From NCBI RefSeq assembly GCF_003335045.1, contig NZ_QOZG01000003.1, positions 1 to 64,000 on the forward strand: DNA of 64,000 bases. The letters are read 5' to 3'. Shown here in pieces: positions 28,406-31,197 of the stretch. Within the stretch, counting starts at the first letter, position 1. Each line of letters opens with the position of its first letter. The notes beneath the pieces were generated by a model. The model saw nothing but the letters and a program-made list of their open reading frames with translations. It ran no database searches and had not been told where the DNA came from. The translations under genes and the position numbers were made by a program. This DNA comes from Paramesorhizobium salinisoli. GTDB taxonomy: Bacteria; Pseudomonadota; Alphaproteobacteria; Rhizobiales; Rhizobiaceae.

Positions 28406-29833
28406 TTATTCAGCCGCAGTTGCTGCAGCAGCCGGGGGCAGGCCCAGCCATGCCCGGCAATCGGCGAGTGCCCGGGCACTCAGTGCGCGCTTCTTGGCAT
28501 TGGTCTTTTCCTTGCCGCGCAGGCGCTTTCCCTCGGTTTTCGGCGTTTCAATCGGGGGAAACAGGCCGAAATTGACGTTCATCGGCTGGAATGAACGCTT
28601 CCCCGGTTCATCCTCGGAAACGAGATGGCCGCCGGTGATGTGGCCCAATAGCGCGCCGAACGCCGTCGTCTCCGGCGGCAGCGACGGCTCCTCACCACAA
28701 TGTTCGGCTATGGCGAAGCGCCCGGCTAGGAGCCCGATGGCCGACGATTCCACGTAACCCTCGCAACCGGTGATCTGTCCGGCGAAGCGCAGGCCTGGCC
28801 GGGATTTGAGCTGCAGCGAGCCATCGAGCAGCAGCGGTGAGTTCAGATAGGTGTTGCGGTGCAGACCGCCGAGCCTGGCAAACTCGGCGTTTTCCAGGCC
28901 CGGGATGAGCCGGAAAATGGCGGTCTGCGCGCCATATTTCAGTTTCGTCTGGAAGCCGACCATGTTGTAGAGCGTGCCGAGCGCATTGTCCTGGCGAAGC
29001 TGCACCACGGCATAGGCTTTCACCGCAGGATTATGGGCGTTGGTCAAACCCATCGGCTTCATAGGTCCATGGCGCAGCGTTTCGGGTCCGCGTTCCGCCA
29101 TCACTTCGATCGGCAGGCAACCGTCGAAATAGGGCGTGCCTTCCCATTGCTTGAATTCGGTCTTCTCGCCGTCGATCAGCGCCTGGACGAAGGTTTCGTA
29201 CTGCTCCTTCGTCATCGGGCAGTTGATGTAGTCCTTGCCGGTGCCGCCCGGGCCGACCTTGTCGTAGCGCGACTGGAACCAGCAGACATTCATGTCGATG
29301 CTGTCGTAATGGACGATCGGCGCGATGGCGTCGAAGAAGGCGAGGGCGTCGGCGCCGGTTTCCGTCCGTATCGCCTCGGCAAGGCCAGGCGCGGTCAGCG
29401 GACCCGTCGCGATGATGGTCTGGCCCCAATCGGCGGGCGGCAGACCGGTGACTTCCTCGCGTTCGATCGTGATCAACGGGTGGGCTTCGAGTTTCGCGGT
29501 GACGCCTTGCGAAAAACCGTCCCGGTCGACCGCCAGCGCGCCGCCGGCTGGTACCTGGTGCACATCCGCGCTTGCCATGATCAACGAACCGGCCAGCCGC
29601 ATCTCGGCATGCAACACGCCCACGGCATTGGTTTCGGCGTCGTCGGAGCGGAACGAGTTGGAACAGACGAGTTCGGCAAGTCCGTCCGTCTTGTGCGCAT
29701 CCGTTCCGCGAACCGGCCGCATTTCATGGAGGACGACCGGAATTCCTGCTTGGGCTATCTGCCATGCGGCTTCCGAGCCGGCGAGACCGCCGCCAATGAT
29801 GTGGATAGGCTGTTTTGACTTTGAATTTGGCAT
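28406..29833 (-). CDS. trmFO: Folate-dependent tRNA (uracil-54-C5)-methyltransferase TrmFO
   Basis: FAD- and methylene-tetrahydrofolate-dependent enzyme making ribothymidine 54 in the tRNA T loop. The 475-residue product has the N-terminal FAD-binding [18 protein letters not shown], the [19 protein letters not shown] block that carries the Cys of the family, and [36 protein letters not shown] near the C-terminus. A GTG 9 nt upstream of the ATG is an alternative start. The C-terminal tail is Ala-rich. The stop abuts that of the convergent NDUFAF6-like gene with no spacer and no terminator. Confidence 0.96.
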
Positions 29834-29919
29834 GGGTTTCACTTAGCGTCTTATTCAGCGGGCTTCAACGGCGAACCGCATGCAGTTCGCCATTCACCAT
29901 CTGTTGGAGGAGAAGCACA

Positions 29920-30492
29920 CTGTCTGGAGGGACACGGGCCGGGCTCTTTTTCCTGCTGCTTCTCGCAGGCGCAGATTCTGCGCAAGCACAGGCGCCGCGC
30001 TTCAGGATCTGCCATGGCTATGGCTGCTATCGTACGACGCTCGTAACGCTTAGTTCCGACGACCTGAAAAAGATCACGGCAATCATGGCGCAGGGCCAGA
30101 AATCCGCTGAAGCTGAGCGCGGGGCCCTACGCGATGCGCTGGCGATCTTCGAAGAACGCAGCGTTGCTGTCATCGGTGTGCGCGACAAGCCAAGGATGGA
30201 GTTCGGCAAGGCGCGCATCGTGGGCCAGATGGATTGCATCGACGAATCCACCAATACAGACCATTTCCTGAAGTTTATGGAGGCGAAGGGCTGGCTCAGC
30301 CATCACCGCGTGGCGCGCAAGACATCGCGCGGCTTCTTTCTTGATGGGCGATATCCCCATTGGACGGCAGTTCTGAGGGATGAGCAAGGCGTGCTCTGGG
30401 CGGTCGATTCCTGGTTCGATCCCGGGGGCGGGCCGCCCGACGTGATGAAGCTGTCGGAATGGAAGCGACGAGGGGTCGGCGGGGAACGATGA
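29920..30492 (+). CDS. Secreted hypothetical protein, probable CTG start
   Basis: The frame encodes an exported protein: GLFFLLLLAGADSAQAQAP is a signal peptide with cleavage near AQA. No ATG, GTG or TTG lies in frame close to this point. TTGGAGGAG ends 7 nt before an in-frame CTG, ideal spacing, so CTG is taken as the start (190 residues). The next ATG would lose the signal peptide. The mature part has RICHGYGCYRTTLVTLSSDD, an EFGKARIVGQMDCIDESTNT segment and VDSWFDPGGGPPD. Three Cys are present in the mature part. I do not recognise the family. It converges on the small-RNA array. Confidence 0.65.
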   Translation: MSGGTRAGLFFLLLLAGADSAQAQAPRFRICHGYGCYRTTLVTLSSDDLKKITAIMAQGQKSAEAERGALRDALAIFEERSVAVIGVRDKPRMEFGKARIVGQMDCIDESTNTDHFLKFMEAKGWLSHHRVARKTSRGFFLDGRYPHWTAVLRDEQGVLWAVDSWFDPGGGPPDVMKLSEWKRRGVGGER

Positions 30493-30516
30493 GGCGGAAT
30501 CCGCGCTGAATAAACA

Positions 30517-30630
30517 ACACCCGCCGCGGGAGGAGGTGCGGCGGGTGTCGTTAGGTAAAGGCTGACTGGGAGGAGGAGTGCCAGCCCTTGATCGCTCAAG
30601 CTTGGGAGGAGGATAAGCTCTCGCGATATT
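30517..30630 (-). ncRNA. CCUCCUCCC-loop small RNA, distal unit (cuckoo/CcsR-like)
   Basis: Second of two tandem units downstream of the DUF1127 gene. Read on the minus strand it has three hairpins, each with CCTCCTCCC in the loop (plus-strand loops at 30604-30612, 30568-30576, 30528-30536). The last has a perfect 11-bp stem, ACACCCGCCGC/GCGGCGGGTGT; the first pairs ATCGC..AGCTT with AAGCT..GCGAT; the middle is imperfect (GGCTG/CAGCC plus ACT/AGT with a bulge). After the last hairpin the minus strand reads TGTTTATTC, a possible weak terminator. The loop is anti-Shine-Dalgarno sequence, as in the CcsR RNAs of Rhodobacter and the cuckoo RNAs of Rhizobiales. Confidence 0.8.
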
Positions 30631-30650
30631 CGTTATTCTTTGAAGTTAAC

Positions 30651-30763
30651 GGCACTCGCTGTGGGAGGAGGTACAGCGAGTGCCATTAGGTAAGGCCGGC
30701 TGGGAGGAGGAATGCCGGCCTTTGATCGCTCGAGCTTGGGAGGAGGTAAGCTCTCGCGATATT
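30651..30763 (-). ncRNA. CCUCCUCCC-loop small RNA, proximal unit (cuckoo/CcsR-like)
   Basis: First unit after the DUF1127 stop on the minus strand. Three hairpins again have CCTCCTCCC loops (plus-strand positions 30738-30746, 30702-30710, 30663-30671). Stems: ATCGC..AGCTT/AAGCT..GCGAT; AAGGCCGGC/GCCGGCCTT, perfect 9 bp; and GGCACTCGCTGT/ACAGCGAGTGCC, perfect 12 bp. It repeats the distal unit with a period of 134-135 nt. The stem sequences of the matching third hairpins differ between units but remain fully paired. A DUF1127 gene upstream of such RNAs is the arrangement known for ccaF1-ccsR in Rhodobacter sphaeroides. Confidence 0.82.
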
Positions 30764-30793
30764 CGGTCAGACGCTCGACGCGCCGTATGGTTC

Positions 30794-30940
30794 TTAGCGC
30801 GTGCCGGACTGGCGGGCGACGTAAGGAATGTCGGCGCGGGAGATGCCGAGGTCGCTCAGTTCGCGGTTCGAAAGGCGGTTCAGTTCACCAACGGTGTCGC
30901 GGAAACGGCGCCAGTTGTTGTAGGAGCGGATCAGGTTCAT
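30794..30940 (-). CDS. DUF1127 small RNA-binding-type protein (CcaF1-like)
   Basis: A 48-residue basic protein that is almost entirely a DUF1127 domain: MNLIRSYNNWRRFRDTVGEL, NRLSNRELSDLGISRADIPY. The arginine-rich first half fits nucleic-acid binding; the Rhodobacter homologue CcaF1 binds RNA and affects maturation of the CcsR small RNAs encoded downstream. GAAGG precedes the ATG. The two CCUCCUCCC-loop units lie 30 nt beyond its stop on the same strand, so protein and RNAs are probably cut from one transcript. The promoter should lie at about 30960-31080 but I cannot assign its sigma factor. Confidence 0.88.
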   Translation of the reverse strand: MNLIRSYNNWRRFRDTVGELNRLSNRELSDLGISRADIPYVARQSGTR

Positions 30941-31197
30941 GTCAGTCAACCTTCTAATGTATCTCGTTGATCGCTGTTTCGATCGTGACCCACATATAAT
31001 CCAGCTTTTGCCTGGGTTGCAGGCCCAAGATTGCATAGCTGACCTGCAATTGTTGCAACGCGTCATTAATCGATTTTAATTTTTGTGCATCGCACAATAC
31101 GCATGAATGGCGCTAGCCGAATTCTTGGCTGTTCTTGATCTGCCGATCCTGGGGTAATGTGTGCTGATTTTGCAGCCGCACGAATCAGGAGTTCAGC

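Follow-up and report, generated by a model that had tools for sequence, protein, structure and literature searches.

The window, that is the whole analysed stretch of 64 kb, contains a locus that can with good confidence be read as a tandemly duplicated ar14 (cuckoo, NfeR1-type) sRNA gene acting by an antisense mode. This confidence covers identity and mode of action, and it is lower for the regulator and for the single precursor. The locus belongs to the known ar14/"cuckoo" sRNA family and is of a known kind, a DUF1127 gene together with a cuckoo RNA. The family, its loop motif, its hairpin number and its linkage to DUF1127 are all already in print, and because the family is known the locus itself is no surprise.

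The best reading, drawn from the relatives NfeR1 and CcsR, is a DUF1127-sRNA operon with activation of LsrB/VtlR type and six silencing loops. The duplicated ar14 gene would form the 3' part of this operon, and a LysR activator of the LsrB/VtlR type would bind a box about 100 nt upstream of the DUF1127 gene, switching on one transcript with the DUF1127 message followed by six hairpins. Transcription would read through at the inner unit A, which has no T tract, and stop at the G+C-rich last hairpin of the downstream unit B. Three-hairpin RNAs would then be released by RNases, perhaps with the help of the DUF1127 protein, and their exposed CCUCCUCCC loops would pair with the Shine-Dalgarno region of several mRNAs, blocking translation.

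For co-transcription, processing and target silencing the relatives supply the model. In S. meliloti, the predicted pairing of NfeR1 is with the region around the ntrB translation start, and each of its three anti-Shine-Dalgarno motifs could form it. NfeR1 lowers an ntrB reporter, which a version mutated in the three motifs does not; it is activated by LsrB and repressed by NtrC (PMC10746234). In the case of CcsR, the RNAs are cut out of the ccaF1 3' UTR in a process that involves RNase E and CcaF1 (PMC10253847, PMC8625941). Since only one of the six NfeR1 copies of S. meliloti was reliably detected by northern blot (PMC7143759), the copy in the window may be weakly expressed.

Anatomy of the array and its loops

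The following features, all on the minus strand, make up the gene and the array.

30794..30940, minus strand: gene for a small DUF1127 protein of 48 aa (start codon ATG at 30940, stop codon at 30794-30796; Pfam PF06568)
30647..30764, minus strand: ar14 unit A, the upstream, inner copy, three CCUCCUCCC hairpins (Rfam RF02344, 94.8 bits)
30725..30760, minus strand: unit A hairpin 1 (inverted repeat I5, fold)
30692..30722, minus strand: unit A hairpin 2 (inverted repeat I8, fold)
30647..30688, minus strand: unit A hairpin 3 (inverted repeat I1, fold)
30512..30631, minus strand: ar14 unit B, the downstream copy, three CCUCCUCCC hairpins (Rfam RF02344, 103.5 bits)
30591..30627, minus strand: unit B hairpin 1 (sequence, fold)
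30558..30589, minus strand: unit B hairpin 2 (repeat D1, fold)
30513..30552, minus strand: unit B hairpin 3 (inverted repeat I2; 15-nt arms, 93% complementary)

Six minus-strand matches to CCTCCTCCC were found (at 30528, 30568, 30604, 30663, 30702 and 30738). The window has no further match, 0.65 would be expected by chance, and six were reached in none of 100 shuffles. Across the genome the 9-mer shows no enrichment, with 69 matches and 72 for its backward control, and this count was dropped as evidence: the significance of CCTCCTCCC sits in its clustering and hairpin context. The start-to-start spacings of the repeat families D1, D2 and D4 are 134, 135 and 133 nt, respectively, and the exactly repeated 19-nt leader (D4) precedes each of the two units. 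Folding of minus-strand positions 30793 to 30500 puts all six hairpins into the minimum-energy structure (z = -10.0; 0/200 shuffles as good), with CCUCCUCCC in all six folded loops, three per unit. The sequence-only reading had described six hairpins with minus-strand loops, arranged as two units of three with a period of 134-135 nt. Motif positions, repeats and fold bear this out, the period being 133-135 nt, and the loop, which it had called complementary to the Shine-Dalgarno sequence, is the exact complement of a strong one.

Also the assignment to a cuckoo/CcsR-type array behind a DUF1127 gene held. The Rfam model of ar14 (RF02344) matched both units over its full length and far over the cut-off of 58.8 bits (B 103.5, A 94.8), while AbcR (ar15, RF02345) had no match in the window. 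The 48-aa protein matched PF06568 with 55.4 bits (E = 4.8e-15), and NCBIfam gave no name for it. Its gene ends about 30 nt before unit A and lies directly upstream of the array on the same strand, the arrangement of DUF1127 and cuckoo RNAs seen in the ccaF1-CcsR1-4 operon and in 'CIN1', which is defined in PMC10253847 as a short DUF1127 gene associated with cuckoo RNAs. The one idea to be rejected was that three hairpins per unit would be a variation, three being the number given for ar14 (PMC10746234; PMC3927594); two hairpins per RNA are given for Rhodobacter RS0680a and four for SmelA099 (PMC3927594).

The loops are conserved while the stems vary and keep their pairing, as is typical of ar14. 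Thirty genomes were represented by one ar14 unit each, chosen solely as the best-scoring one with a covariance model that itself contains the loop motif, and 85 of their 90 loops had the exact motif. Stem changes were followed in an alignment (A1) of 18 units, 16 from the same genus and two from other genera, where 20 of the 33 predicted stem pairs showed at least one two-sided change that keeps the pair; the loop constancy of A1 follows from the selection of its units for exact motifs. These 18 belong to a set of 50 units from 28 genomes with three exact motifs spaced 30-48 nt, identical sequences being counted once. The upstream unit of genome G003, which has a variant loop, falls outside this set, and in A1 the aligner shifted hairpin 3 of the row for the upstream unit of G002 (G002_A).

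Near-identical loops (85/90) on variable stems and in variable number would also fit a sponge, whose repeated loops would capture an RNA-binding protein, such as the co-encoded DUF1127 protein, instead of pairing with mRNAs. CsrB sequesters CsrA in this manner. For this alternative speaks further that Rhodobacter CcaF1 is reported to bind RNA and to act on its own CcsR RNAs (PMC10253847). Against it stand YjiS, another DUF1127 protein, for which PMC12501420 reports that no RNA binding was found, the exact complementarity of the loop to a strong Shine-Dalgarno sequence, and the loss of ntrB reporter lowering by NfeR1 with three mutated loops (PMC10746234). The sponge is considered unlikely.

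Targets of the favoured antisense pairing were listed from perfect 9-nt complement sites, of which 57 were left when the 12 situated inside sRNAs were dropped from the 69 in the genome. A start codon 3-12 nt downstream, with an open frame of at least 60 codons, followed 15 of the 57 sites. This is not a clear enrichment (random mean 8.9, maximum 17), and the list was rejected as evidence. A Pfam scan of ten of the 15 gave glycosyltransferase 20, AraC- and LysR-type regulators, LysE, TctB, SIS, FAA hydrolase and DUF1565; these are candidates at most.

Other copies, DUF1127 linkage and the promoter box

The same genome has four ar14 matches over the cut-off and one further at 52.5 bits. One of them, on contig C5, lies behind a second short DUF1127 gene. 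Another on contig C9 (C9:114333) has no DUF1127 match alongside, but its own T tract and its own upstream box (12/15, see below). The C9 copy (114333-114450, minus strand; locus L182, C9:111000-116500) is placed tail-to-tail with the diverged ar14-like RNA of 52.5 bits (112280-112398, plus strand), about 2 kb apart; the latter has shortened loops and remains under the Rfam cut-off. Plus- and minus-strand ar14 are likewise tail-to-tail in G001, G002, G003, G004 and G005, from less than 100 nt to about 2 kb apart. Upstream of the second DUF1127-ar14 locus, on C5, there is an ar15 (AbcR-type) sRNA over the Rfam cut-off (L001:951-1062) at a distance of a few hundred bases, and likewise in G001, G002, G003 and G004, whose second loci were scanned.

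The existence of an ar14 copy without DUF1127 also bears on the idea that the hairpins work in cis only, as a 3' element that keeps the DUF1127 message stable and serves as its terminator, without any function in trans. The very stable stems of the fold and the place of the array at the 3' end of the DUF1127 gene would suit such a role. Stabilisation, though, needs no CCUCCUCCC loop that stays conserved (85/90) while the stems change, and NfeR1 works in trans (PMC10746234), which together leave a purely cis role highly improbable.

Among 61 genomes, ar14 was found in 45 at E <= 0.001 and in 37 over the cut-off; of the 37 genomes that belong to the same family as the window's genome, 36 have a match. 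DUF1127-like proteins were present in 42 of the 61 at E <= 1e-7, and 72 matches to short DUF1127 were obtained; matches in related genomes are not independent. Hairpins with at least one exact motif followed 43 of the 72 on the same strand, in 30 of the 42 genomes, the first starting within 400 nt. Within the family this was so for 42 of 63 matches (29 of 36 genomes), and outside it for one of nine. In the controls, which span 1000 nt, hairpins were found on the opposite strand at 1/72 matches and upstream on the same strand at 12/72, three of these 12 having them also downstream. The arrays are thus not always behind a DUF1127 gene, given these upstream hairpins and the 29/72 matches with no downstream array of exact motifs, a count in which degenerate loops are underrepresented as only exact motifs were taken. 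Exact-motif hairpins per array ranged from 1 to 7. When CTCC-containing loops were counted in folds of 620 nt, ten were found in G032 and nine in both G025 and G046; these arrays (L059 on G032:C45, L062 on G025:C23 and L111 on G046:C6) each follow a single DUF1127 match and are longer than that of the window.

Upstream of the DUF1127 gene of the window, two further features were recorded.

31031..31049, minus strand: inverted repeat of the form TTGCA-N9-TGCAA, inside which the plus strand matches the VtlR/LsrB consensus GCAT-N3-TG-N3-T
30994..30999, minus strand: TTATAT, a -10-like hexamer downstream of the box, seen by eye and a candidate only

The scan of the region reported no sigma-70 consensus promoter. 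The TTGCA-N9-TGCAA pattern has two exact matches in the 5.05-Mb genome, one of them the window's box, a rarity that is partly circular because the pattern was drawn from this and the second DUF1127-ar14 promoter. GCAT-N3-TG-N3-T is the consensus given for VtlR/LsrB (PMC7486931, PMC8844928), and a match to it was found at -94 to -112 from the DUF1127 start in all six same-genus orthologues. The consensus is loose, with seven matches in the window, no more than chance, and was rejected as weak when taken alone. It occurred in 28 of the 72 regions upstream of DUF1127 matches and in 19 on the other strand, compared with 0/72 in the backward control and 4/72 in the far flanks.

The 15-mer motif quoted in PMC12595884 was matched at 15/15 at the second DUF1127-ar14 locus and at 11/15 by the window's box, a score that the far flank of the window also attains. 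Matches of at least 12/15 were present within 400 nt upstream of 29 of the 72 DUF1127 matches and in the next 400 nt of three, while 50 permuted motifs gave on average 0.38 such matches (maximum 4). The distances were narrow, 28 of the 29 lying at -82 to -130. At 11/15 there were 46 matches near and 14 far. Matches of at least 14/15 were found at nine of the 43 DUF1127 genes with an array and at none of the 29 without. The genome also has a LysR gene between trxB and an ar15 (AbcR-type) RNA, all on one strand, which is the order described for vtlR in Agrobacterium (PMC7486931); among the 25 NCBIfam matches listed, none over the cut-off named the LysR protein of this cluster. The box of the window, conserved in position although a match of 11/15 to the quoted motif, is a putative LsrB/VtlR-type binding site, a less certain assignment than that of the RNA family.

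Doubling of the unit and the predicted precursor

The order DUF2157, DUF1127, array, TrmFO was found in six of six same-genus genomes. The array has one ar14 unit in G001 and G004 and two in G000, G002 and G005; G003 has two units with five exact motifs and one variant loop. A search of genome contigs with DUF2157 gave the named loci of Phyllobacterium phragmitis and Paramesorhizobium deserti, with two ar14 units each, which are probably the same genomes as G005 and G003, respectively, and thus no extra evidence.

The region of hairpin 3 and the tail distinguishes the copies, in a comparison where G002_A is misaligned and the upstream unit of G003 is left out. Identity between downstream and single units is 97-100%, unit B of the window reaching 97% with that of G004 and 100% with that of G001. 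The upstream unit has the same sequence here in G000 and G005, and its identity to the downstream and single units is 71-74%. Because the downstream and not the upstream units resemble the single ones, we infer that unit B represents the ancestral form and unit A the added copy. As a whole, unit A is 92% identical to its orthologue and 81% to unit B, while in hairpin 1 it is 93% identical to unit B and 88% to the orthologue in G005, a pattern that hints at gene conversion.

An open frame of 225 aa on the plus strand (29815-30492 of the window), which has no Pfam match at E <= 0.001, converges on the array. In a tblastn search of the 3.1-kb loci it was found in exactly the doubled-unit loci G000, G002, G003 and G005 and was absent from the two single-unit loci.

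The tails of the two units differ. After hairpin 3 of unit A there is no T tract, the longest T run being 2. The final, G+C-rich hairpin of unit B, with TTGTTTATT behind it, is probably a transcription terminator, although the longest T run after it is 3 compared with 5-6 after the last units of the same locus in five same-genus relatives; the terminator scan was blind to this hairpin as it allowed only loops of 3-8.

This difference recurs among the 50 three-loop units of the 28 genomes. A T run of at least 4 followed none of the nine internal units, defined as having at least two further loops downstream, and 34 of the 41 others. Four four-hairpin arrays were entered twice in this comparison, as loops 1-3 and 2-4. 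With these four rows dropped the counts were 0/9 and 30/37 (p = 1e-5), and with the G000/G002/G005 lineage taken as one row 0/7 of the internal units had the run (p = 9e-5). Counting the four rows as internal weakened the test (4/13, p = 0.0016), as the four-hairpin arrays of G014, G019 and G034 keep the T run after hairpin 3 in 4/4 rows. The four-hairpin arrays L069, L091, L092 and L029 have a T run of at least 4 both after hairpin 3 and after hairpin 4, and such arrays may have two transcription ends. Arrays built of several three-hairpin units resemble single transcripts terminated at the final hairpin, the four-hairpin arrays being exceptional.

Two ar14 sRNA genes, each with its own promoter and merely situated behind DUF1127 like a free-standing NfeR1, would fit the exact repetition of the leader (D4) before both units, and the C9 copy with its own box and T tract, and no DUF1127 match alongside, could be such a gene. 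In the window, the missing T tract at the end of unit A, the negative sigma-70 consensus scan and the position of the conserved box upstream of the DUF1127 gene all stand against separate genes, which are rather unlikely. The earlier reading had left the choice between two three-hairpin RNAs and one six-hairpin precursor. As internal units have no T tract, the latter is favoured, and the doubled array would be made as one long RNA.

Implications and comparison with known systems

The arrays appear to grow by tandem duplication with the inner copy losing its terminator, and through this loss one promoter would drive more anti-Shine-Dalgarno loops. The VtlR/LsrB-type box upstream of many DUF1127 genes, strongest where an array follows, adds a modest new regulatory link. 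In the part of the literature covered, no mention was found of an operon joining ar14 arrays to DUF1127 genes activated by VtlR/LsrB, and the link may be new. For atu1667, which VtlR activates, action by the protein or by an RNA was left open, and more than 250 genes have been linked to VtlR with direct binding at three promoters (PMC7486931). An explanation could lie in an sRNA array within the operon, an array at atu1667 itself being hypothetical. As a tentative generalization, somewhat short of an even chance, DUF1127-cuckoo operons might generally serve the LysR regulator LsrB/VtlR as an output arm in Rhizobiaceae-type bacteria. A small protein and a multivalent anti-Shine-Dalgarno array would then be carried by a single transcript, the hairpin number would evolve as units are duplicated and inner terminators are lost, and the RNAs would explain part of the large VtlR regulon that has no binding site of its own.

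With ar14 (RF02344; NfeR1/Smr14C2, SmelA075-type, cuckoo) the locus shares three hairpins per unit, CCUCCUCCC loops, variable stems and several copies per genome. It differs in that two units are in tandem in one array, the inner one without a T tract; also NfeR1 is described as a 123-nt transcript with its own sigma-70 promoter (PMC10746234). The family is further characterized by trans-acting transcripts of about 123 nt that are Hfq-independent and silence mRNAs at the Shine-Dalgarno site.

The locus and the CIN1-type ccaF1-CcsR1-4 operon of Rhodobacter have in common a DUF1127 gene followed by a tandem anti-Shine-Dalgarno sRNA array on the same strand. Rhodobacter RS0680a is here taken to be CcsR. 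It has two hairpins (PMC3927594), whereas each unit of the window has three. CcsR is characterized by an RpoHI/RpoHII promoter; here, where the promoter scan covered the sigma-70 consensus, a box matching VtlR/LsrB is conserved.

The third comparison is with the VtlR/LsrB regulon, which includes AbcR sRNAs and DUF1127 genes in Brucella and Agrobacterium and NfeR1 in Sinorhizobium. In the part of that literature covered, DUF1127 genes and ar14 RNAs are treated as separate targets, whereas here they form one predicted operon, and Agrobacterium has two tandem AbcR RNAs (PMC7486931) while one ar15 match was found in the 8-kb cluster of the present genome. Common to both are the box upstream of DUF1127 and the trxB-LysR-AbcR cluster.
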